The notes beneath the pieces are model-generated. The model did not search any database. It was not told the DNA's origin and saw nothing but the letters and a program-made list of their open reading frames with translations. This document shows positions 3,926 to 27,002 of a DNA stretch of 64,000 bases, piece after piece; the first letter of the stretch is position 1, and every line of letters begins with the position of its first letter. The stretch comes from Deltaproteobacteria bacterium (GTDB taxonomy: Bacteria; JAGRBM01; JAHCIT01), in NCBI GenBank assembly GCA_026129095.1, contig JAHCIT010000004.1, positions 248,001-312,000 on the forward strand, read 5' to 3'. The position numbers were made by a program, and so were the translations under genes.

Positions 3926-4731
3926 GTGTCCCGCCTGTCCATCAGAAACATCATGTCCGGAGACCGTTTCACTTCCGGCCAGTGACGGCTCCACGCATAG
4001 AGGCCGCCCCGGTGGGCCTTTGACGGCGGCTCGATATGTAGCCTGCGGCGCACGTCGTCGAGCGGGAGCTCCAGCATCTCCTCCAGCGGCTCCGCCAGCA
4101 GCCACTTGGCCCGCCGGCCGCGCTCCCACGCCGCCAGCATGTAGGGCTGGAAACCCCATCTGTCATTTGGCAGGGCGAGCGGAGCAAAACCGAAAGCAAC
4201 ACCCGCCAGCACCGCCACGCCGAAGATCGGCGACTGGCCGTAAGTAAAAGCCAGCAGCGCCGCCTCGCCCAGCTCGTCGGCACCATAACCGGCGAGCGGG
4301 TGCCACAGGTCGTGGTTGTCCCGGAACCGGTCGCGGAACCACTGGCGGTCGGCGTCCACCTTCAGCTGGGGATCGTCCTCCCGGTAGGAGCTCGAAGTCG
4401 CTTCGGCGAGGCCGTAACCGTCGAGCCGCTCCTCTTCCATGTAACGTGCATAGGCGTAGCCGAACGTGTTCTTCGGCAGCCGGAGCAGGCGGGTCCGGTT
4501 CCCGGTGAGATATTCCAGCAGCGACGGTTTTTCCCTGAGAAGCTTCTGCCCGCGGGCGGTCCGGCGGAACCGCTGGAAGGCCCGTTCGAGGCCGTCGCCT
4601 TCCAGCGAAAAAACCATCTCCGCCACCTTGTCGGAGCGGCTCGTGTCTTTCACTACTTCCAGAAGAGCCTTCCCTGCCCGTCCCCACTGGTATTTGAATG
4701 CAGGCAGGCGGTCCGTCTCTCTGGCGCCCAT
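3922..4731 (-). CDS. COQ4-like protein
   Basis: 269 residues from the chosen ATG. The diagnostic COQ4 metal motif H-D-x-x-H-x11-E is complete (HDLWHPLAGYG then Glu; His140, Asp141, His144, Glu156). In eukaryotes COQ4 acts in ubiquinone ring modification (C1 decarboxylation/hydroxylation); bacterial relatives are less studied. The N-terminal 100 residues are mostly helical. An upstream in-frame ATG exists at 4749, but the ATG at 4731 has a GAGG site 6 nt in front and is preferred. It is divergent from the TetR gene, and the intergenic region contains a 34-bp palindrome, so it may be controlled by that repressor. It could act on a quinone or on another lipid-like substrate of the downstream catabolic genes. 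Confidence 0.8.
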   Translation of the reverse strand: MGARETDRLPAFKYQWGRAGKALLEVVKDTSRSDKVAEMVFSLEGDGLERAFQRFRRTARGQKLLREKPSLLEYLTGNRTRLLRLPKNTFGYAYARYMEEERLDGYGLAEATSSSYREDDPQLKVDADRQWFRDRFRDNHDLWHPLAGYGADELGEAALLAFTYGQSPIFGVAVLAGVAFGFAPLALPNDRWGFQPYMLAAWERGRRAKWLLAEPLEEMLELPLDDVRRRLHIEPPSKAHRGGLYAWSRHWPEVKRSPDMMFLMDRRDT

Positions 4732-4780
4732 AAGAAACCTCGCTCCCATAACCCCGGCAACCTCTTATTGAAGTTGCCGC

Positions 4781-8671: not shown

Positions 8672-10768
8672 TTGAGCCACATCAGCCAGATCGTCCGGAC
8701 CGTCTGTCCCTATTGCGGCGTCGGCTGCGGGATGGGACTCCGCGTGGAAGGCTCACGGGTCACCGGCGTCGAGCCGCTGGCCACACACCCCGTGAGCCGC
8801 GGGGAACTGTGCACCAAGGGCTGGAGTTCCGCCTTTGGTATCGGTGCCGAAGACCGCATCACCACGCCCCTGATCAAGGAACAGGGCAGGTTTCGCCGGG
8901 CAAGCTGGGACGAGGCAGCCGGATATGTCGCCGACGCCCTGCAGGAAGCCATCCGGACAAGCGGTCCGGATTCGACTGGAGTGGTGAGCTGCGCCCGTGC
9001 CACCAACGAGGACAACTACGCCGCCCAGAAGTTCGCCCGCCTTGTTCTCGGAACGAACAACGTCGATCACTGTGCCCGCATCTGCCACAGCCCGTCGGTG
9101 GCAGGACTGAGGCAAACGCTCGGTTCCGGCGCCATGACCAACTCCATCACCGACCTTCATGAGGCTGACCTGATTGTCGTCTGGGGCAGCGACACGACCG
9201 AAAACCACAGCATCATCGGCGGGCAGATAATCCGCGCGAAACTGGCTGGAGCGAAGCTGCTCGTCGTGGATCCGCGCAGGATACGCCTGGCGCATCTGGC
9301 TGACCTGCATCTCCAACCCCGGCTTGGAACGAATATCGCTCTTGCCAACGGCCTTTTGCATGTGATCTTCCGGAACGGGTGGGAGAACCGGGATTTCATC
9401 TCCAGCCGGTGCGAGGATACAGCCGGGCTCCGGAAGAAAGTGGAAGAGTACCCCCCTGACCGCGTCGCCAGCATCACAGGCGTTCCCGAAACCGATATCG
9501 TTGAGGCCGCCCGCCTGTACAGCCAGTCAAAGGCGGCATGGCTCTGCTACGGCATGGGGATCACCCAGCACGCCACCGGCACCAGCAACGTCATCGCCCT
9601 GTCGAACCTCGTGCTGGCGACCGGCCAGATCGGACGGCCCGGGGCAGGGATCAATCCCCTCCGCGGACAGAACAACGTGCAGGGGGCCTGCGACATGGGT
9701 GCCCTGCCCAATGTGTATCCGGGCTACCAGGACGTCCTTGATCCGGCCATGCAGGCAAAGTTCGAGAAGGCATGGAATGGGCCCGTGCCAAAGACTCCGG
9801 GCATGACCTCGCTCGGCATGACTTCGGCCGCACTGTCGGGATCATTCAAGTGTCTCATCATCATGGGTGAAGATCCGGTCGTTACCGATCCCGACCAGAA
9901 TCATGTGCGGCGGGCGCTCCGGGCCCTGGACCTGCTGGTGGTGTCGGAGCTCACGCTCACCGAGACGGCCAAGGAGGCGGACGTCATCTTTCCAGCGGCG
10001 TCCTTCGCCGAAAAGGACGGAACCTTCACCAGCTGCGAACGGCGTGTCCAGCGGGTCCGGGCGGCCATTCCGCCGCCGGGCGAGGCCCGTCCCGACTGGC
10101 GGATGCTGGGTGAACTGGCGCGCCGGATGGGGAAAAGCGGACTCGACTGGGAGAGCGCCACCAATATCTTCGATGAAATGGCCGCATTGAGTCCCATCCA
10201 CTCGGGCATGAGCTTTGCGAAGGTCAGCGCGGGCGACGGCATCCAGTGGCCATGCAACGCAGAACATCCCGGCGGCATGTCCGTGCTGCACGAAAAGTCA
10301 TTTCCAGTCGGACGCGGCCGGCTGATTCCGATCTCGCATGCAGGACCTGCGGAACTGCCCGATGAGAACTATCCGTTCTGGTTCACAACGAACCGGCTCC
10401 ACTTCCACTACGGATGCGGCTCGATGACCCGCAAGTCGCCGCTGCTGGAGCGGGAAATCCCGGATGGCCTGGTGTTCATGAATCCCGCGGACGCCGGGCA
10501 GCTGGGGCTCAGGGACCGGAGTCCGGTGAGGATCGTTTCCCGGCGCGGAGCGGTCGAAACCCGCGCCATCCTGACCGACGACCTGCCGCCTGGAACCCTC
10601 ACCATGCCGTATCACTTCCGGGAAGCGCCCTCGAACCTCGTCACCAATACCGCGCAGGATCCGGTGACGAAGATGCCTGAGCTTAAGGTTTGTGCTGTTC
10701 GCGTGGAAGTCCTTCCCGCCGGTCATGTTCCCTCCAATCCCGTTGGACCGGAGACGCTCCCCCTGTGA
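8672..10768 (+). CDS. fdhF: Formate dehydrogenase catalytic subunit (Cys form)
   Basis: 698 residues, molybdopterin (or tungstopterin) bis-MGD oxidoreductase. The N-terminal [4Fe-4S] ligands are Cys12, Cys15, Cys19 and Cys47 (CPYCGVGC...GELCTKG). The active-site loop reads HCARICHSPSV, with Cys138 where selenocysteine occurs in E. coli FdhF, followed by the catalytic His139. The C-terminal molybdopterin-binding domain is present (GRLIPISHAG; TNRLHFHYGCGSMTRKSP). It lacks the long N-terminal ferredoxin region of NAD-linked FdsA-type enzymes, fitting a catalytic chain that passes electrons to separate subunits. Start is TTG, with GAGGGGAG 12 nt upstream. Its stop overlaps the GTG of the next gene. 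No twin-arginine signal, so cytoplasmic. Reaction: formate to CO2 (or reverse). Confidence 0.9.
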   Translation: MSHISQIVRTVCPYCGVGCGMGLRVEGSRVTGVEPLATHPVSRGELCTKGWSSAFGIGAEDRITTPLIKEQGRFRRASWDEAAGYVADALQEAIRTSGPDSTGVVSCARATNEDNYAAQKFARLVLGTNNVDHCARICHSPSVAGLRQTLGSGAMTNSITDLHEADLIVVWGSDTTENHSIIGGQIIRAKLAGAKLLVVDPRRIRLAHLADLHLQPRLGTNIALANGLLHVIFRNGWENRDFISSRCEDTAGLRKKVEEYPPDRVASITGVPETDIVEAARLYSQSKAAWLCYGMGITQHATGTSNVIALSNLVLATGQIGRPGAGINPLRGQNNVQGACDMGALPNVYPGYQDVLDPAMQAKFEKAWNGPVPKTPGMTSLGMTSAALSGSFKCLIIMGEDPVVTDPDQNHVRRALRALDLLVVSELTLTETAKEADVIFPAASFAEKDGTFTSCERRVQRVRAAIPPPGEARPDWRMLGELARRMGKSGLDWESATNIFDEMAALSPIHSGMSFAKVSAGDGIQWPCNAEHPGGMSVLHEKSFPVGRGRLIPISHAGPAELPDENYPFWFTTNRLHFHYGCGSMTRKSPLLEREIPDGLVFMNPADAGQLGLRDRSPVRIVSRRGAVETRAILTDDLPPGTLTMPYHFREAPSNLVTNTAQDPVTKMPELKVCAVRVEVLPAGHVPSNPVGPETLPL

Positions 10769-17453: not shown

Positions 17454-18641
17454 CTACCGGGAAGCCAGAATCGCGTCGATTTCCGCCTTGAAGGCGGAGA
17501 AAGGCTGCGCCCCGGACAGCTTCTTGCCATTCACGAGGAACCCCGGAGTGCCAGTGATGCCGAGGGCGCTTGCCTCCGCCATGTCCTGATCGAGCTGCTT
17601 CTGAGTCTCCCGGTTCTCAAAGCACTTCTTGAACTTCTGCTCGTTGATGCCGAGAGTCTTCACGAAATTGTAGGTCTTGTCCTTGAGATTTCCCTCACTG
17701 AGCGACTTCTGGTTGTCGAAGTAATAGTTGTACAGCTTCCAGAACTTTTCGTCGCCGGCGTCACGCTGCACGCACAGCGATGCAATCGAGGCTTCATCGG
17801 CCCACTTGTGAAACGGCAGGGGCAGGTGCTTGAAGTAGAATGTCACCTTGTCCTTGTAGGCAGGATAAACCTCCTGCCGCATGGTCTTGGCGGCACGGTC
17901 GCAGAACGGACACTGGAAGTCCGAGAACTCGACGATCACCACCTTCCCGTTTTTCGCGCCCTGCTTCGATGCACCCTCCAGAGTGACCATCTTCATCCGC
18001 TCGGCCCTGGGATCGGACTGTGTGTCGGTCCAGACTCCGAAGGTGGCGAACTGTCCGTCATCGGTCACCATCAGCTCGCGGCCGCCTTCTTCCTCGTCTT
18101 CATCCGGGGTCAGCGCCCGGAACGACAGGATCTTGAACCCCGGCATCTCCGACTTGCTCACCTGGTCCAGCTTGTACATTCCTCCGATGGTCACCCAGCG
18201 TCCGTCTTCCGAGGCGTAAACCGGCTTGGTGATCGTCTGCCCACGGGCGCCGAGCACCGCCTCGCCCACAAGAACACCTTTTGCCGACGACCTGCGGAAA
18301 TTCTGGATCTGGATGGTGATTCCGGGCCGGGAGATCCGGTCCTCCAGGGCGGTTACCATCTTGCCGATCACTTCGGCCGGAACATTTACCGGCGCATTCT
18401 CTGTCCATGAAGAATCCTTGCCCGGCTCCTGGGCGTTGGCTGCTGCGGGACGAAGCACGCTGAATACGCCGCCTTCTCCCGGAGCCACCGCCTCCCGGGC
18501 CACCGGTTTCGCGGCCGCTGCAGACGGACGGGCCCGGCTGGCGGTATCTTCCTTCTTTTCGCTGGCAGACTGCGTACATCCGGCGGACGACAGGACGGCC
18601 GCAGATGCGAGACAACCGAGGACCCCTCGTAACTTCAACAT
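17454..18641 (-). CDS. DsbA-family thioredoxin-fold lipoprotein with N-terminal extra domain
   Basis: 395 residues from ATG 18641 (GTG 18665 is an alternative). Signal peptide ends in a lipobox (LSSAGC), so it is lipid-anchored in the envelope. A Lys/Ala/Pro-rich linker and a roughly 140-residue domain of unknown type follow. The C-terminal 170 residues are DsbA-like: CPFC at Cys244-Cys247 in SDFQCPFC, helical insertion, and the cis-Pro motif TGTPGF. The N-terminal domain resembles the region seen before thioredoxin folds in DsbC-like proteins (inference). It is 55 bp downstream of ccdA on the same strand, so a reduced partner, fed electrons by CcdA, is plausible. The four Cys-rich lipoproteins at 23848-25766 are possible clients. 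Confidence 0.85.
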   Translation of the reverse strand: MLKLRGVLGCLASAAVLSSAGCTQSASEKKEDTASRARPSAAAAKPVAREAVAPGEGGVFSVLRPAAANAQEPGKDSSWTENAPVNVPAEVIGKMVTALEDRISRPGITIQIQNFRRSSAKGVLVGEAVLGARGQTITKPVYASEDGRWVTIGGMYKLDQVSKSEMPGFKILSFRALTPDEDEEEGGRELMVTDDGQFATFGVWTDTQSDPRAERMKMVTLEGASKQGAKNGKVVIVEFSDFQCPFCDRAAKTMRQEVYPAYKDKVTFYFKHLPLPFHKWADEASIASLCVQRDAGDEKFWKLYNYYFDNQKSLSEGNLKDKTYNFVKTLGINEQKFKKCFENRETQKQLDQDMAEASALGITGTPGFLVNGKKLSGAQPFSAFKAEIDAILASR

Positions 18642-18696
18642 GGTCGAAACATACCTCTCTGGCACCCACCGGTCCCCGGCAGGCGCATTTACAAGC

Positions 18697-19446
18697 CTAT
18701 AACTGCCAACTGTTCAGGAAAGACAGGTATCCAGCCAGAACTGTCAGATTGTCGGTCACCAATAGCATACCCACCAGCAAAAGGATGCAGCCGGAGACTA
18801 TCTCCACCTTGCGCATGTGAAGCTTGGCACGGCTCATCGCCTTGAGGGCCGGCCGGATCAGAAGCCCGGACATGAGAAACGGTATTCCCAAGCCGGCCGA
18901 GTAGATGACCAGCAGGCCCACACCCTGCGACAATGTCTCCTGCCGTTCCGCCATCAGCAGGATTGCCGCCAGCACCGGCCCAATGCAGGGCGTCCAGCCA
19001 AAGGCGAACGCCAGCCCCAGCAGATAGGCCCCGGCAAGGCTGGCCGGCCGGTGCGTCGTGTGAATACGCGCCTCCCGGTACAGCAGCGGAATCTTGATAA
19101 CACCCATCATGTGCAGGGCAAAGACGATCACCACCACCCCGCCGGCTCGCCCCAGCCACGGCTGGTTCTGGAACAGCACAGAGCCGATGGCACTGGCGGT
19201 CGCCCCCAGCAGGACAAAAATTGTTGAAAACCCGAGTACAAAGAACAGGCTGGCCAGGGCCACCCGCTGCCCGGCTCCTTCGGCCAGGGCGTTCTCGTGC
19301 CCGGCTGTGCCTCGCAGATCGTCCATGGACACACCGGAAATAAACGACAGGTAGCCGGGAACGATCGGAAGCACACAAGGAGACAGAAAACTCACCACCC
19401 CCGCCAGAAAGGCGGCAAAGATGGTCACATGCTGGATGGCATCCAC
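18697..19446 (-). CDS. ccdA: CcdA-type cytochrome c biogenesis/thiol electron transporter
   Basis: 249 residues, about six transmembrane helices. The two redox Cys motifs of the DsbD/CcdA family are present: SFLSPCVLPIVPGY near residue 24 and GWTPCIGPVLAAIL near residue 155. These membrane proteins carry electrons from cytoplasmic thioredoxin to envelope thioredoxin-fold proteins. It lies between the HEAT-repeat gene and the DsbA-like gene on the same strand; the latter is the obvious partner. No other cytochrome c maturation genes are nearby. Confidence 0.9.
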   Translation of the reverse strand: MDAIQHVTIFAAFLAGVVSFLSPCVLPIVPGYLSFISGVSMDDLRGTAGHENALAEGAGQRVALASLFFVLGFSTIFVLLGATASAIGSVLFQNQPWLGRAGGVVVIVFALHMMGVIKIPLLYREARIHTTHRPASLAGAYLLGLAFAFGWTPCIGPVLAAILLMAERQETLSQGVGLLVIYSAGLGIPFLMSGLLIRPALKAMSRAKLHMRKVEIVSGCILLLVGMLLVTDNLTVLAGYLSFLNSWQL

Positions 19447-22030: not shown

Positions 22031-23653
22031 CTACCCGTTCAGGGACTTCAGATAGTCTTCCCGGTCATCGTCGTCGTAAAGCGTCTCGTACGCCTTGGTG
22101 ATCTGGAGGTAAATCGCCGCCACCTTGGCCCGCTCCGCCTGGTCAATATCATGGCTGAGTTTGGCCGGGTGGAATATCCGCGCCAGTTCCACGTACGCCG
22201 TCCGCACTTCTTCCCGGCCTGCATTCCGGGTGACTCCAAGCACCTGGAAATAGTCGTCCGAGTCCAGCGTCTTGAACTTCTCGGCGATCCGCTCGAAGAA
22301 CGGCAGCTCGGACAGCTTGCCAGGAACCCGCTGTGCGGCCGGGACATCCAGCGTATCCGACGGAACAGCGGGCGGCGGGACCGAATGGCTGGCGACAATC
22401 ACACCGGGAATGTCGGGCGCCATCCCCCGGTCGTCTGCAGGACGGACCGGCAGCATTTCACTGCTTACGCGTTCGCTCAGCCGTTCGGAGTCCGGGTCCG
22501 GAAGCGCCTTGAACTCCATATACCCCAGGACCATGAACCCGTATGCAAGACGCAGCATCTGTTCCGGCCGGGGGGCCACTTCCAGAACATTCCGGAGCGT
22601 CCTGCGCCCATCCACCAGCCGGAGCAGTTCTGCTTCGTCATACTCCAGCACAAAGCCGGCGAGATCGCTGTCAAAATCCGCCCAGCTCACCACCTGGTTT
22701 GCGTAAGGCACCATCCGTTTCTTGATCGAGTCGAACGCCATGCGCCGGACAACAGCCTCCTTGAACGAATGCTGTAGCGGTGTGCTGCCCGCAGGCGCAG
22801 GTCCCTTCGGCTTCTCCGGAACGAAACTGTATTCGCCGGCCGCCCATGAAAAGCAGTTCTCGAACTTCTCCGCATGCTGCCGGTTCAGGGCCGCCTGGAG
22901 CTCATCGGCGGTCAGAAGCCCCAGTTCCACCAGCACGTCGCCGTGGCGCTTCTTCCGCTGCTTGGAAATGAGCCGCGTGTCGTCGCACTGGGTCTGGGTG
23001 ATCTTTCCCTCGGCGACCAGCAGCCGTCCCAGCACCTCACTGAGCAGGTTCGACTGGATACCGGTCAGGGCACCATGGACGAAACCAAATGTTTTCCTGA
23101 CCTTCGCCTTGATGGCTGTCAGCGTTCCGGTGCGCTTTTCGGTAACAATCGAACCGATCACTTCGGCGAACGGTGTTTCGGCGAAGGTTCCCTGATACCC
23201 ACCCCCCGCAGCCTCTGACTGTAATCCCGCGCCTCCGGCCTCTTCCCCTTCATCATCCACCCCGGAGTCAACCTCTCCTGCGTGGAAAAGGATACGGTCC
23301 CGCAGCAGCCCCAGGTTGAGCGGCTTGGTCAGAAAATCATTGGCGCCGTATTTCTGCCGGGCCTCGTTCTGGACCTGGGAGGATTTGTACACCGCGCTCA
23401 TCAGGATGATCGGCAGCTTCAAACCATCGGCCTGCTTGCGGATCGCCTGGCAAAGCTCGAAGCCCGTCATTTTCGGCAGCAGCACATCCGACAGGATCAG
23501 GTCCGGCCGGTCCGTCTCAAAAAACTTGAGCCCTTCCAGTCCGTTTGTGGCAAAAACGATCCTGAGCGGCAGGTCCTGCAGCCCTTCCGATATGAAACTT
23601 CGCACCAGCTTGTCATCCTCGACGACAAGCAATTTTTTCGTGGAGTCGCCCAC
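22031..23653 (-). CDS. Response regulator with DUF4388 and degenerate J domain
   Basis: 540 residues from GTG 23653 (GTG 23674 adds 7). N-terminal receiver with DLILSDVLLPKMTG (phospho-acceptor Asp about residue 50-56) and the conserved TKP Lys. A DUF4388 domain follows: GTFAETPFAEVIGSI, then a tandem 'LGRLLVAEGKI'/'RHGDVLVELGLLTADELQAA' motif. Near the C-terminus is a DnaJ-like domain: DYFQVLGVTRNAGREEVRTA, then FHPAK where J proteins have HPD, then ITKAYETL. The HPA change should abolish DnaK stimulation. It probably acts as a phospho-switched scaffold or regulator in motility or development-like pathways, as seen for related myxobacterial proteins (inference). Confidence 0.85.
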   Translation of the reverse strand: MGDSTKKLLVVEDDKLVRSFISEGLQDLPLRIVFATNGLEGLKFFETDRPDLILSDVLLPKMTGFELCQAIRKQADGLKLPIILMSAVYKSSQVQNEARQKYGANDFLTKPLNLGLLRDRILFHAGEVDSGVDDEGEEAGGAGLQSEAAGGGYQGTFAETPFAEVIGSIVTEKRTGTLTAIKAKVRKTFGFVHGALTGIQSNLLSEVLGRLLVAEGKITQTQCDDTRLISKQRKKRHGDVLVELGLLTADELQAALNRQHAEKFENCFSWAAGEYSFVPEKPKGPAPAGSTPLQHSFKEAVVRRMAFDSIKKRMVPYANQVVSWADFDSDLAGFVLEYDEAELLRLVDGRRTLRNVLEVAPRPEQMLRLAYGFMVLGYMEFKALPDPDSERLSERVSSEMLPVRPADDRGMAPDIPGVIVASHSVPPPAVPSDTLDVPAAQRVPGKLSELPFFERIAEKFKTLDSDDYFQVLGVTRNAGREEVRTAYVELARIFHPAKLSHDIDQAERAKVAAIYLQITKAYETLYDDDDREDYLKSLNG

Positions 23654-23847
23654 CCTGGCCCGGTTCCCTCGCACCCACGCGCCCGCAAGGCACGCAGCAT
23701 TCAGTTCGGTTGCGAACAGTATACGGGTGCACTGAAAATCGAGTCAAACTTCGGCGGTGCCCGCCGCAACAAAACAGGATCCGCCAACTTTTGCAGCGCC
23801 CCGGTTGTGCCGGCAATCCGATTCAGAGCGGTACGGGCCGGAAAGAA

Positions 23848-24264
23848 TCAGTTGGAAATCTCGAACTCTCCGCCATCCTCTTCGCACTGGTCCGTTTCCG
23901 AGGAGAAGCTGTCAGCTGATTCGTAGGACCCCAGAAACAGCAGGACACGGGTCAGCGCGAAATCAACGCCACCGAATCTCCGGTCCTCCGGGATAATGCA
24001 GGCGGCCTGGGCCTCTGCCCGGCCGGTACACAGCTCATCCATCAAATAGGTCCCGCCAAAGGTGGCGCACTCTGCTTCCAAACGGTCATGGGCGGCCGTC
24101 CGCTGGCCGTCCTGCAGGGCCGGAAGCACCCGGTACTCAATACAGCGGCCAGTGACACTGTCCAGGCAGCTTCCTGCCAGTGCAAAACTGGTGTCGGCCC
24201 GGTTGCAGCCGGTCGCCGCCATCAGAGCCATCGCTACCGGAACCCATTGAATACACCTGTTCAT
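23848..24264 (-). CDS. Small Cys-rich lipoprotein (family member A)
   Basis: 138 residues from the ATG at 24264. Signal peptide with lipobox ending ATGC. The mature part has eight or so Cys in a pattern shared with the next two genes: Cys-x3-Gly-Gly, Cys-Thr/Pro, Ala-Cys, and near the end Cys-x3-Gly-Gly-x-Phe. No known domain recognised. Probably an outer-membrane or periplasm-facing lipoprotein. It is the last of four similar genes on this strand. Confidence 0.65.
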   Translation of the reverse strand: MNRCIQWVPVAMALMAATGCNRADTSFALAGSCLDSVTGRCIEYRVLPALQDGQRTAAHDRLEAECATFGGTYLMDELCTGRAEAQAACIIPEDRRFGGVDFALTRVLLFLGSYESADSFSSETDQCEEDGGEFEISN

Positions 24265-24295
24265 GCCGGATCCGCTACCCCACTCTCCGATGCAT

Positions 24296-24715
24296 TCAGT
24301 GAAACTCCAATACGCCGTCACGGCCGTTACAATCGCTGATTATTTCCGGGTCGCCGGCCGAATCCCATTGACCGGACATCCAGACGCGCATTCCCGCCAG
24401 CCCTGCACTGTCCGGCGGTTCGACGCAGGTGGCATAACGGTCTTCACCGGGGCACCCGAACAGGGGATTGAAAAGCCCACCAGCCGCAGTGCATTCCGGA
24501 CCGACTACCGCCATGCAGGCCTGCGTAAGCTCCTTGCGAAGTCCCACAGCCGAATCAATACCGTCACAAAGCCCTTCCGACTGCTGGATGCAACTGCACC
24601 CGATAAGCCCGACGGGGGGCACCGACCTGCCACACCCGGCCAGTGGCAGGAATCCCACGGCAAAACAGACTGCCAGCAGGTCCATCGCCCGTTTTTTCCC
24701 TGTCAGTTGCCTCAA
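24296..24715 (-). CDS. Small Cys-rich lipoprotein (family member B)
   Basis: 139 residues. TTG start is chosen because it supplies the basic n-region (KKR) and has GGGGAG 7 nt upstream; ATG 24685 would remove it. Lipobox PLAGC. The mature chain shows Cys-Thr-Ala-Ala-Gly-Gly, FGCPGED, ATC and a final Cys-x3-Asp-Gly, as in its neighbours. Function unknown. Confidence 0.65.
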   Translation of the reverse strand: MRQLTGKKRAMDLLAVCFAVGFLPLAGCGRSVPPVGLIGCSCIQQSEGLCDGIDSAVGLRKELTQACMAVVGPECTAAGGLFNPLFGCPGEDRYATCVEPPDSAGLAGMRVWMSGQWDSAGDPEIISDCNGRDGVLEFH

Positions 24716-24745
24716 GCGTGACTCCCCGCCGGTGTCCGTATCCGG

Positions 24746-25141
24746 TCAGGGGTCACAGGACAAATCCGAAGGACCATCGAATGAACCATCCTTGGATTCG
24801 CAATCCGCCTGAATGTCACAAATCTGTTCGTCTGTAAGTCCGGGGTCCGAGTAGAAGCGGGTTTCGGTGATGCCATCGCCGGACTGCTCGCAGGAGGCAA
24901 TAACCCCTTCATCAGGGCAGCTTTCCAGGGCCGTACCGCCGCCGTCACGGCAGGCGTCGTCAACCGACTCGATCTCCAGTCCCAGGTTGAACCCCGGCGG
25001 AAGATCCAAGCCTCGCAGATCATATTCCCACTGTTCGCAAATGAAGCCGTTCTCGCAGGCCGTCGTCGCCGACAGGGAGGCCCCGCCTCCGCATCCCGCC
25101 AGAACCGCACACAAGACCAGTCCTGTCACCACGTATTGCAT
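24746..25141 (-). CDS. Small Cys-rich lipoprotein (family member C)
   Basis: 131 residues. Short signal peptide with lipobox VLAGC. The Cys pattern is ACRDGGG, ESCPDEG, ASC, then QADCESKDGSFDG near the C-terminus, again matching members A and B. Acidic mature protein. Function unknown; located 30 bp upstream of member B on the same strand. Confidence 0.65.
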   Translation of the reverse strand: MQYVVTGLVLCAVLAGCGGGASLSATTACENGFICEQWEYDLRGLDLPPGFNLGLEIESVDDACRDGGGTALESCPDEGVIASCEQSGDGITETRFYSDPGLTDEQICDIQADCESKDGSFDGPSDLSCDP

Positions 25142-25274
25142 TCAGCCATCCCCGTATCCGGACCGAACATATGGCCCGGTCAAGCGTTCCACTAACCTGG
25201 CGTGGCACTGCCGCCCGAATGATGGAAGTCTAGGCGAGCATCAAAGCCGAGGGAAACCCCCGCCGGAACCATTC

Positions 25275-25766
25275 TCATGGTGTTTCCGCTGACCACATGC
25301 CCTTGAGAGGCGCCGCCTGGCATATGCTTCGGGCACCATCCTGGGCGTCTTCCAGGGTTCCCGTGCCGTCCCAGTACACCGACACCGAAGCCACGAAGTC
25401 GAAATGGATGCCCTGCCCTTCATAAATGAATGTCTGGTCCCGCCGCTCGGGAACCTGGCACCGGCCGATCCGGCCATTTGCCGCCAGAAGTTCCGGACAG
25501 TCCAACAGTTCCACCGACAGGGAACCGGTTTCGGAATCGTAAGCCTCGCCGGTTTCCACACATACTTCTCCCGCCGCCGCCTGCCGGAGCGCTTCTGTCC
25601 CCGCAACGGTTTCCACGGCATCGACTGCCACATCCACTTCAACGCAGATGGGAACTGTTGCCAGCGGCGCCGAACAGGTTCCGGCCCGCTGCAAGCCGCG
25701 CCCGTCACCGCCACAGGCGGTGGCCAGCATCAGGAAAACCGGCGCTACCTTCCAGAATCTGCCCAA
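25275..25766 (-). CDS. Small Cys-containing lipoprotein (more distant member D)
   Basis: 163 residues from a TTG start, four bases after the stop of the acyl-CoA dehydrogenase gene, suggesting translational coupling. Signal peptide with lipobox ATAC. The mature chain has six Cys, with LDCPELL, GRC and SICQAAPLKGMW roughly in the order seen in A-C, but the spacing is looser. Membership in the same family is likely but not certain. Confidence 0.55.
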   Translation of the reverse strand: MGRFWKVAPVFLMLATACGGDGRGLQRAGTCSAPLATVPICVEVDVAVDAVETVAGTEALRQAAAGEVCVETGEAYDSETGSLSVELLDCPELLAANGRIGRCQVPERRDQTFIYEGQGIHFDFVASVSVYWDGTGTLEDAQDGARSICQAAPLKGMWSAETP

Positions 25767-25770
25767 CAGT

Positions 25771-26916
25771 TCAGTCCTTCAGCAGGGACTTGGCGATAAT
25801 ATGACGCTGGATCTCGCTGGTCCCTTCATAGATGCGAAGACCGCGGGCTTCGCGGAAAATGTGCTCGATCTCGCATTCCTTCATGTAGCCCATGCCACCA
25901 TGAATCTGGACGCACCGGTCCACGACGCGCCAGAGCGCCTCCGTGCCGTAAAGCTTGCACATCGAGGCTTCCGTATCGACGTTCTGGCCCTGATCCTTCC
26001 GCCAGGCCGTGGCGTAGAGGAACTCCCGGAGCGTGGCGATATCCACCTCGTTGTCAGCCAGCATGAACTGGACGGCCTGCTTCGTGGCGATCGGCTCGCC
26101 GAACTGGATGCGCTGTTTCGCGTAGGCCACGGTCAGTTCCTGCGCCCGCTGCATGGCCCCAAGCGACCTGGCCGCGATGGAGAGGCGGCCGGCAGCCAGC
26201 ACCCTGAGGCCGAGCCGGAAACCGCCGCCCACCTGGCCGATGACGTTTTCCTCAGGCACCCGGCAGTTCTCGAACACGATCTCGCACTGGCGCACCACAT
26301 CCGAACCCATGCTCGCCATGTGGCGCGTGATGCTCATTCCCGGCGTGTCGCGTTCGATGGCGAAGGCCGTAATGCCGCCCTTGGCGCGCTTGTTACGGTC
26401 AGTCAGCGCGATGATGGTGAAAAATCCGGCGATATCGGCACGGGTGATGAAGTGCTTGCGGCCATTCAGAACCCAGTGCTTGCCGTCCTTAACCGCAAGT
26501 GTCTCGATGGCGGCGGCGTCGCTTCCCGCCGCTGGCTCGGTGATGGCAAAGGCCGCGATCACCTCGCCACTCGCCAGCCGTGGCAGGTACTTCTTCTTCA
26601 GGTAGTCCGATCCTTCATAGACCACCCCCATTCCGCCTATCCCGTTGCTGCCGGAAATCAGCAGGTTGAAACAGTTATGGGCGAAGGCGAACTGCTCCTG
26701 GATCAGCATGTAGGCGAGTGTTCCCAGATTCTGTCCGCCGAACTCCTCGGGAACCATAATACCGAAATATCCCAGTTCGCGAAGCCGCTGGATCAGTTCC
26801 GGGGGAATACTCCTGGTTTCCTCGATCCGCATCGTGTGCGGCATGAGCTCCTTCTGAACAAACTTTCGGGTCGTGTCGCGGAGCATCTGCATGTCGTCGG
26901 ACAGTTCGTAGTGCAT
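25771..26916 (-). CDS. Acyl-CoA dehydrogenase
   Basis: 381 residues. Typical ACAD: N-terminal helical domain, 'ITEPAAGSDAAAIET' and 'NGRKHFITRADIAGFF' in the central beta domain, C-terminal 'FGEPIATKQAVQFMLAD' and 'GLRIYEGTSEIQRHIIAK'. The Glu in YEGT is the usual catalytic base position. FAD enzyme that makes an alpha,beta-double bond in an acyl-CoA. ATG 26916 has GAGGAA close by; the frame extends upstream to 26964 without support. It is 86 bp downstream of an enoyl-CoA hydratase gene on the same strand, so together they could do two steps of beta-oxidation. Confidence 0.93.
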   Translation of the reverse strand: MHYELSDDMQMLRDTTRKFVQKELMPHTMRIEETRSIPPELIQRLRELGYFGIMVPEEFGGQNLGTLAYMLIQEQFAFAHNCFNLLISGSNGIGGMGVVYEGSDYLKKKYLPRLASGEVIAAFAITEPAAGSDAAAIETLAVKDGKHWVLNGRKHFITRADIAGFFTIIALTDRNKRAKGGITAFAIERDTPGMSITRHMASMGSDVVRQCEIVFENCRVPEENVIGQVGGGFRLGLRVLAAGRLSIAARSLGAMQRAQELTVAYAKQRIQFGEPIATKQAVQFMLADNEVDIATLREFLYATAWRKDQGQNVDTEASMCKLYGTEALWRVVDRCVQIHGGMGYMKECEIEHIFREARGLRIYEGTSEIQRHIIAKSLLKD

Positions 26917-27002
26917 GAAAATTCCTCGCGGCCGGTTAATTGACCGGTACAACGGCCAAATCAAGAGGAGAACCGGAGCGATTCCGGCCGGCAGGAAACA
27001 GC

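Follow-up and report, generated by a model that had tools for sequence, protein, structure and literature searches.

A tandem array of divergent cysteine-rich lipoproteins with relatives directly behind RHS proteins

Organisation of the array

Four successive genes, here termed A to D, lie on the minus strand of the window, by which we mean the whole stretch of 64,000 nucleotides that was analysed. They encode lipoprotein A (23848..24264, 138 aa, ATG start, lipobox Cys20; an alternative GTG start is possible at 24321), lipoprotein B (24296..24715, 139 aa, TTG start, lipobox Cys28), lipoprotein C (24746..25141, 131 aa, ATG start, lipobox Cys17) and lipoprotein D (25275..25766, 163 aa, TTG start, lipobox Cys18). 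Lipoboxes and signal peptides were called by inspection, and codon use makes the annotated frame the best of six for each gene, in keeping with an earlier note on this DNA that had listed four consecutive minus-strand lipoprotein genes; B itself scores close to zero (+0.008 per codon), against −0.094 for its next frame. The proteins contain 8 (A), 10 (B), 10 (C) and 7 (D) cysteines, compared with 41 cysteines in the 4071 residues of ten neighbouring proteins. A crude filter for a lipobox followed by six later cysteines, applied to window ORFs of at least 80 aa, passes one ORF beyond A–D (8672–10768, 698 aa).

The genes are separated by 133 bp (D–C), 30 bp (C–B) and 31 bp (B–A), and from their layout a single transcript is plausible; promoter and terminator scans gave no more signals than in shuffles. 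Directly upstream of D, and outside the family, lies an acyl-CoA dehydrogenase gene (25771..26931, minus strand; Pfam Acyl-CoA_dh_N/M/1). The start of D lies 4 bp past its stop and AAGGA is found just 5′ of D, so the proposed coupling of D to the dehydrogenase is plausible, while the arrangement may be mere gene order. Downstream of A, at 173 bp, is a gene for a response regulator-DUF4388-DnaJ protein (22031..23674, minus strand, by Pfam). No recombinase or secretion cluster was found by Pfam among the nine flanking proteins scanned.

The lineage is isolated, with one genome of the same order (G001) in the list of relatives and none nearer. There the best dehydrogenase homologue has 58% identity and only 182 bp of contig beyond it, and the downstream regulator has a homologue (43% and 41% identity over residues 12–402 and 449–546) that sits behind an apparent lon gene, without such lipoproteins. 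At 13 dehydrogenase loci from other genomes no such lipoprotein was found by motif. Some 4–6 kb downstream of the array, on the same strand, is a disulfide-handling pair, comprising a DsbA/thioredoxin-like protein, which by inspection has a lipobox, and a DsbD-TM protein (Pfam), encoded at 17454–18665 and 18697–19446 (both minus strand); a functional tie between this pair and the cysteine-rich array is only suggestive.

Family membership and distribution

The motif order described for the four proteins stands in part. Cys-x3-GG is present in A, B and C and missing from D, Cys-Pro is present in B, C and D and missing from A, and Ala-Cys occurs only in A, being replaced by Thr-Cys in B, Ser-Cys in C and Arg-Cys in D. 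The terminal motif reads Cys-x4-G-x-F in A and C, whereas B (Cys-x4-G-x-L) and D (Cys-x6-G-Met-Trp) deviate. Pairwise similarity is clear for A and B, modest for B–C and B–D, and not significant for the other pairs. The A–B score was reached by 0 of 2000 full shuffles and by 2 of 2000 in which cysteine positions were kept; the corresponding counts, each out of 2000, were 21 and 21 for B–C, 16 and 48 for B–D, 418 and 608 for A–C, 196 and 392 for A–D, and 282 and 331 for C–D. By this test the array members are extremely divergent from one another. As A–D alone are only loosely alike, their status as a family rests on homologues outside the window, of which we found six: three in the same genome (E1–E3), two in G151 and one in G289, the last two genomes belonging to another phylum.

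These homologues emerged from successive profile searches. Single-protein searches with C and with A (60 genomes each) matched the genome of the window only. Profile A1, run against six genomes, recovered the four array genes and four weak matches (E 0.17–0.45, one of them in G001) at profile positions 1–36, the N-terminal end. Profile A2, built from the four mature domains, matched three of 386 genomes; the one credible outside genome was G151, in which two adjacent genes encode lipoproteins of the same layout (G151a and G151b), while a match in G219 (E 0.0066) was dropped, its frame reading like a chemoreceptor and its ORF having no cysteine. Addition of the two G151 proteins gave profile A3, which in 22 genomes matched only the window's genome and G151 at E up to 3, and added two places in the former, E1 and E2 (E 0.0018 and 0.0057). 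The same profile matched one of two genomes of the G151 phylum, and four of 385 relatives of G151, three of which were dropped (E 0.027–0.036): two are interrupted by stops, and the frame of the third (L050), rich in Arg, Ser and Cys and lacking a lipobox, has the look of a wrong-frame ORF. E3 was located beside another RHS core through a TIGR03696 search. The nine-row profile A4 matched three of 386 genomes, with seven places in the window's genome, two in G151 and one in G289, the last a new member (E 1.8e-9) not itself in the profile.

Absences in these searches are weak, since at most 11 candidates were scored per genome in the 386-genome (A2, A4) and 385-relative (A3) searches and three A3 searches failed to pick up the G289 member that A4 then matched. 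Within this scope G001 gave no match with A2, A3 or A4. An ORF scan of all loci analysed (2494 ORFs) returned only the known members, two viral scans found no relative, and tblastn against plasmids gave four matches at E 2–9 for one member, none at E 10 for another and none at E 1 for an RHS tip.

The family layout comprises a lipobox, six ordered cysteines and a glycine after the last cysteine, usually with GG after the third cysteine and Cys4-x8-Cys5. In an alignment of all ten members, which includes G151b without its linker, five cysteine columns and one glycine column are occupied in 10 of 10 rows and the sixth cysteine in 9 of 10. GG follows the third cysteine in seven (it is absent from E3, G151b and D), and the Cys4-x8-Cys5 spacing, seen in C as CPDEGVIASC, is common to eight, the exceptions being A (x9) and D (x12). 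In A the family cysteines are residues 33, 41, 66, 79, 89 and 127. The mature domain spans ~100–145 residues, and its six conserved cysteines probably form three disulfides.

A profile of the six members outside the window scored C at 17.8 bits, A at 13.9 bits, B at 12.2 bits and D at 5.0 bits, compared with 3.6 bits for the best of 359 other window ORFs; five of these six members had been found with profiles containing A–D (E3, found by position, being the exception), and the test is thus not fully independent. None of 1000 full shuffles scored as high as A, B or C, and of 1000 shuffles with cysteines fixed none equalled B or C and 3 equalled A; for D the counts were 9 and 12. By these profile scores A, B and C are secure members, and D, the weakest with its longer spacings and lack of Cys-x3-GG, a likely one. 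The tandem family of small cysteine-rich lipoproteins proposed in the earlier note is therefore borne out by outside homologues and the non-window profile, and relatives with the same cysteine order occur both in the genome of the window and, outside its phylum, in two others. A tree contains no supported branch, weakly placing A, B and C together and D with the outside members.

The family could not be assigned to a known one, as had been surmised. A–D have no match above cut-off in Pfam, NCBIfam, PHROGs or PADLOC; below threshold, D matches NF005688 (E 0.11), and B (E 0.89) and D (E 0.098) weakly match PHROGs of unknown function. Scans of Pfam and NCBIfam covered A–D, E1, E2 and G151a and gave no match above cut-off for E1 or E2, while E2 and E3 had no match in PADLOC or PHROGs. 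G151a aligns to DUF3514 over residues 28–63 (E 0.00032, 20.9 bits), below the cut-off of 25, and A–D, E1 and E2 have no DUF3514 match, so filing the family under DUF3514 was rejected. No paper fitting a named family of cysteine-rich lipoproteins was found in the open-licence PMC literature. AlphaFold models from four-sequence alignments (mean pLDDT 44 and 56) were too poor to use, a Foldseek search with the better model gave no match below E 0.6, and PDB sequence searches gave one match each, at E 6.1 and 1.3, which we attribute to chance.

RHS-linked members

E1, E2 and E3 each lie directly downstream of an RHS C-terminus, in the cassettes that we term C5a, C17 and C5b, respectively. As longest ORFs, E1 and E2 overlap the 3′ end of the RHS gene by 25 bp, with a later in-frame ATG giving an ATGA overlap, and E3 likewise overlaps its RHS gene as the longest ORF. 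The RHS carrier of E2 has Ig-like, FG-GAP, SpvB, TcdB-mid and RHS domains in addition to the RHS core, in an open frame of 4293 codons (3219 of them in the stretch analysed), while the RHS genes ahead of E1 and E3 are orphan ends of 340 codons. This genome has five RHS-core places: a family member lies behind three of them, one is a remnant, and in the fifth (L063:1405–2617, plus strand, near 54 kb of C4) the core continues in frame as an AHH nuclease (PF14412, Pfam E 3.2e-15), after which comes a gene for 158 aa without a lipobox or Pfam match. The nuclease and this small gene are likely to be a toxin-immunity pair, and with such a pair behind another RHS core the RHS loci of the genome look like polymorphic toxin loci.

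Comparison of the three cassettes reveals how tip and lipoprotein vary. Between C5a and C5b, DNA identity is 87% in the RHS core and 91% in the flank beyond the lipoprotein gene; for the intervening stretch, which comprises the final ~95 RHS codons and the complete lipoprotein gene, blastn found no match (E 1e-5), and forced alignment gave 0.38–0.58 per block versus 0.42 for one shuffle. C17 aligns with C5a unbroken through tip and lipoprotein (77%), and with C5b only on either side (74% each). At the protein level the C5a and C5b tips share 14/37, 11/38 and 7/19 positions, after 31–40 of 40 per core block. Both elements thus differ jointly between C5a and C5b and both align between C17 and C5a, and therefore tip and lipoprotein gene move as a unit, in the manner of toxin and immunity genes of RHS systems; the co-variation stems from a single cassette lineage and a single exchange and does not amount to three independent cases.

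HESLH, an instance of the zinc-peptidase-like HExxH motif of metallopeptidase toxins, is present in two of the three tips, and the C5b tip has DESVH at this point. None of the three matches a Pfam family up to E 10, and a PDB search with one tip gave no match supporting a peptidase fold; the HExxH motif alone suggests that the tips may be metallopeptidase-like.

E1–E3, directly behind a variable tip and changing with it, are placed as RHS-linked immunity genes would be, and their role as RHS partners is well supported. We consider it likely that they are the cognate immunity lipoproteins of RHS toxins. The RHS-delivered toxin tips would act outside the cytoplasm, and E1–E3, anchored in the envelope, would bind and block the cognate toxin in the periplasm. 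Alternatively, E1–E3 might serve as accessory lipoproteins by which RHS proteins are anchored or displayed at the surface, with A–D as related anchors. The gene overlap, the lipid anchor and the very large size of one RHS protein, with its FG-GAP, SpvB and TcdB-mid domains, would suit such a role, yet an anchor would be expected behind the conserved part of the RHS protein whereas E1–E3 follow the variable tip, which leaves this proposal improbable.

Proposed function of the array

The immunity reading of A–D is drawn from E1–E3 only. A–D themselves are not RHS-linked in the same way: no RHS core lies beside them, and none of the genome's five TIGR03696 places falls in the window. The layout of a polyimmunity locus is nevertheless there, the genes being tandem, on the same strand and distant paralogues. 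By analogy, A–D may be an orphan tandem immunity array (a homogeneous polyimmunity locus), to which we give a little less than an even chance. Such an array would keep several divergent immunity lipoproteins without their toxins and would guard against toxins delivered by neighbouring cells. The divergence within the array had earlier been likened to that of fast-evolving surface proteins; with three paralogues of the same genome sitting behind RHS tips, it points rather to toxin-immunity turnover.

The main rival, nearly as likely for A–D as the orphan array, is that these are plain envelope lipoproteins: a general family of small cysteine-rich proteins with binding or structural roles at the cell's own surface, of which the RHS-linked copies were captured, leaving A–D unrelated to toxins. 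Only three of ten members (E1–E3) are RHS-linked and all are copies of one cassette, while six (A–D and the G151 pair) lie away from RHS genes and a seventh, in G289, sits at a contig end, its upstream side lying beyond the contig. The G151 pair, tandem in another phylum, has no RHS gene beside it and is away from the single RHS place of that genome, and the short flanks examined at this place and at the two RHS places of G001 contain no family member. Small lipoproteins with a similar Cys...GG...CP...C...YYY...C..GG pattern are frequent in Leptospira and myxobacteria, which also favours a general envelope family. A captured passenger would, however, account poorly for the overlap of E-type copies with the RHS gene and for their exchange along with the tip, and a plain envelope role does not sit easily with the extreme divergence inside the tandem array. 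We regard this reading as a serious contender that falls somewhat short of even.

Immunity as the role of A–D is further opposed by the lack of any toxin found beside them and of an RHS gene beside the G151 pair, and by the residue at +2 after the lipobox cysteine, which reads as Asp in E1–E3 and as Asn or Gly in A–D. Judged by this residue the cellular location of the two groups may differ; the Lol +2 rule is that of E. coli.

Taken as a whole, the proposal of a new immunity family, in which three-disulfide lipoproteins would block RHS-delivered HExxH-type toxins in the periplasm and A–D would be an orphan array against several foreign toxins, is tentative. If true, it would show specificity being rewired on a fixed scaffold, lipid-anchored and framed by cysteines, that tolerates extreme sequence change, and would assign an immunity partner to those RHS tips whose motif is metallopeptidase-like. 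With two exchangeable RHS cassettes in one genome, the claim of cognate pairs can be put to a direct test, and A–D are four divergent candidates for cross-protection.

Comparison with known systems

The best parallel for the mechanism would be the Tpe-Tpi pair VgrG2b/PA0261. As described in PMC6899460, the C-terminal domain of VgrG2b is an HExxH toxin that is toxic in the periplasm, and the small envelope protein PA0261 provides immunity; the immunity family is divergent, has partly conserved cysteines, includes predicted lipoproteins in some bacteria, and needs disulfide formation to work well. The RHS cassettes resemble this pair, as described, in their HExxH tip, small downstream gene, putative envelope lipoprotein immunity and conserved cysteines, whereas the carrier is a VgrG/T6SS protein there and an RHS protein here, in one case with SpvB/TcdB-mid.

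Tandem "homogeneous polyimmunity loci" of distant paralogues are described in PMC3482391, orphan immunity arrays are proposed in PMC5361080 to arise by effector displacement in Vibrio, and such arrays protect gut bacteria according to PMC12247911. As far as these accounts describe them, A–D are similar in being tandem, same-strand, distant paralogues with relatives elsewhere that follow putative toxin genes. They differ in being only a putative polyimmunity locus and in that neither a recombinase nor a secretion cluster was seen in the nine flanking proteins scanned; a recombinase adjoins several, not all, known polyimmunity loci.

A lipoprotein immunity family has a precedent in Imm65, the lipobox-bearing partner of Tox-JAB-1, which PMC3482391 presents as the only lipoprotein in its 2012 collection and describes for Bacteroidetes, with a YxC motif and beside a JAB toxin. 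The present family, its immunity role being putative, differs in that A–D, E1 and E2 have no match to Imm65 in Pfam, in so far as Pfam includes that family. Nor was a JAB domain found in the RHS proteins of E1 and E2 or in the three tips, and A–D have no adjoining toxin. In the 2012 table of PMC3482391 the RHS- and TcdB/TcaC-linked metallopeptidase toxins Tox-MPTase1 and 2 have no immunity family entered, an empty slot that the present family could fill.

Small polymorphic lipoproteins in tandem also recall the SitA lipoprotein toxins of Myxococcus (PMC5562445, PMC8546572), and A–D might themselves be exchanged toxins. As portrayed in PMC5562445, SitA proteins share with A–D their polymorphism and lipid anchor; unlike SitA, A–D have no toxin domain recognisable in Pfam, NCBIfam, PADLOC or PHROGs, and no separate immunity-like gene is interleaved between them. 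The six-cysteine domain moreover makes up the entire mature protein, and E1–E3 occupy the position of immunity genes, so that we consider a SitA-like role very improbable.

Additional observations

In G001 a gene for 82 aa with a probable membrane helix and no Pfam match (L062:371–619, minus strand) shares 4 bp with the end of an RHS gene, an immunity-like arrangement of a different type. Behind the E-type lipoproteins of the window's own genome are convergent ORFs with a shared C-terminal part (L057:6433–7905, L078:7715–8164 and L065:103–291, plus strand; 490, 149 and 62 codons, the longest without a Pfam match), and the E-type cassettes seem to have been copied together with this flank. About 0.4 kb from the E1 cassette lies a gene for a phage-type integrase (L056:8110–9381, minus strand, Pfam E 1.1e-25), and a tRNA-Lys at 4675–4751 is the sole tRNA detected in the surrounding 20-kb stretch.
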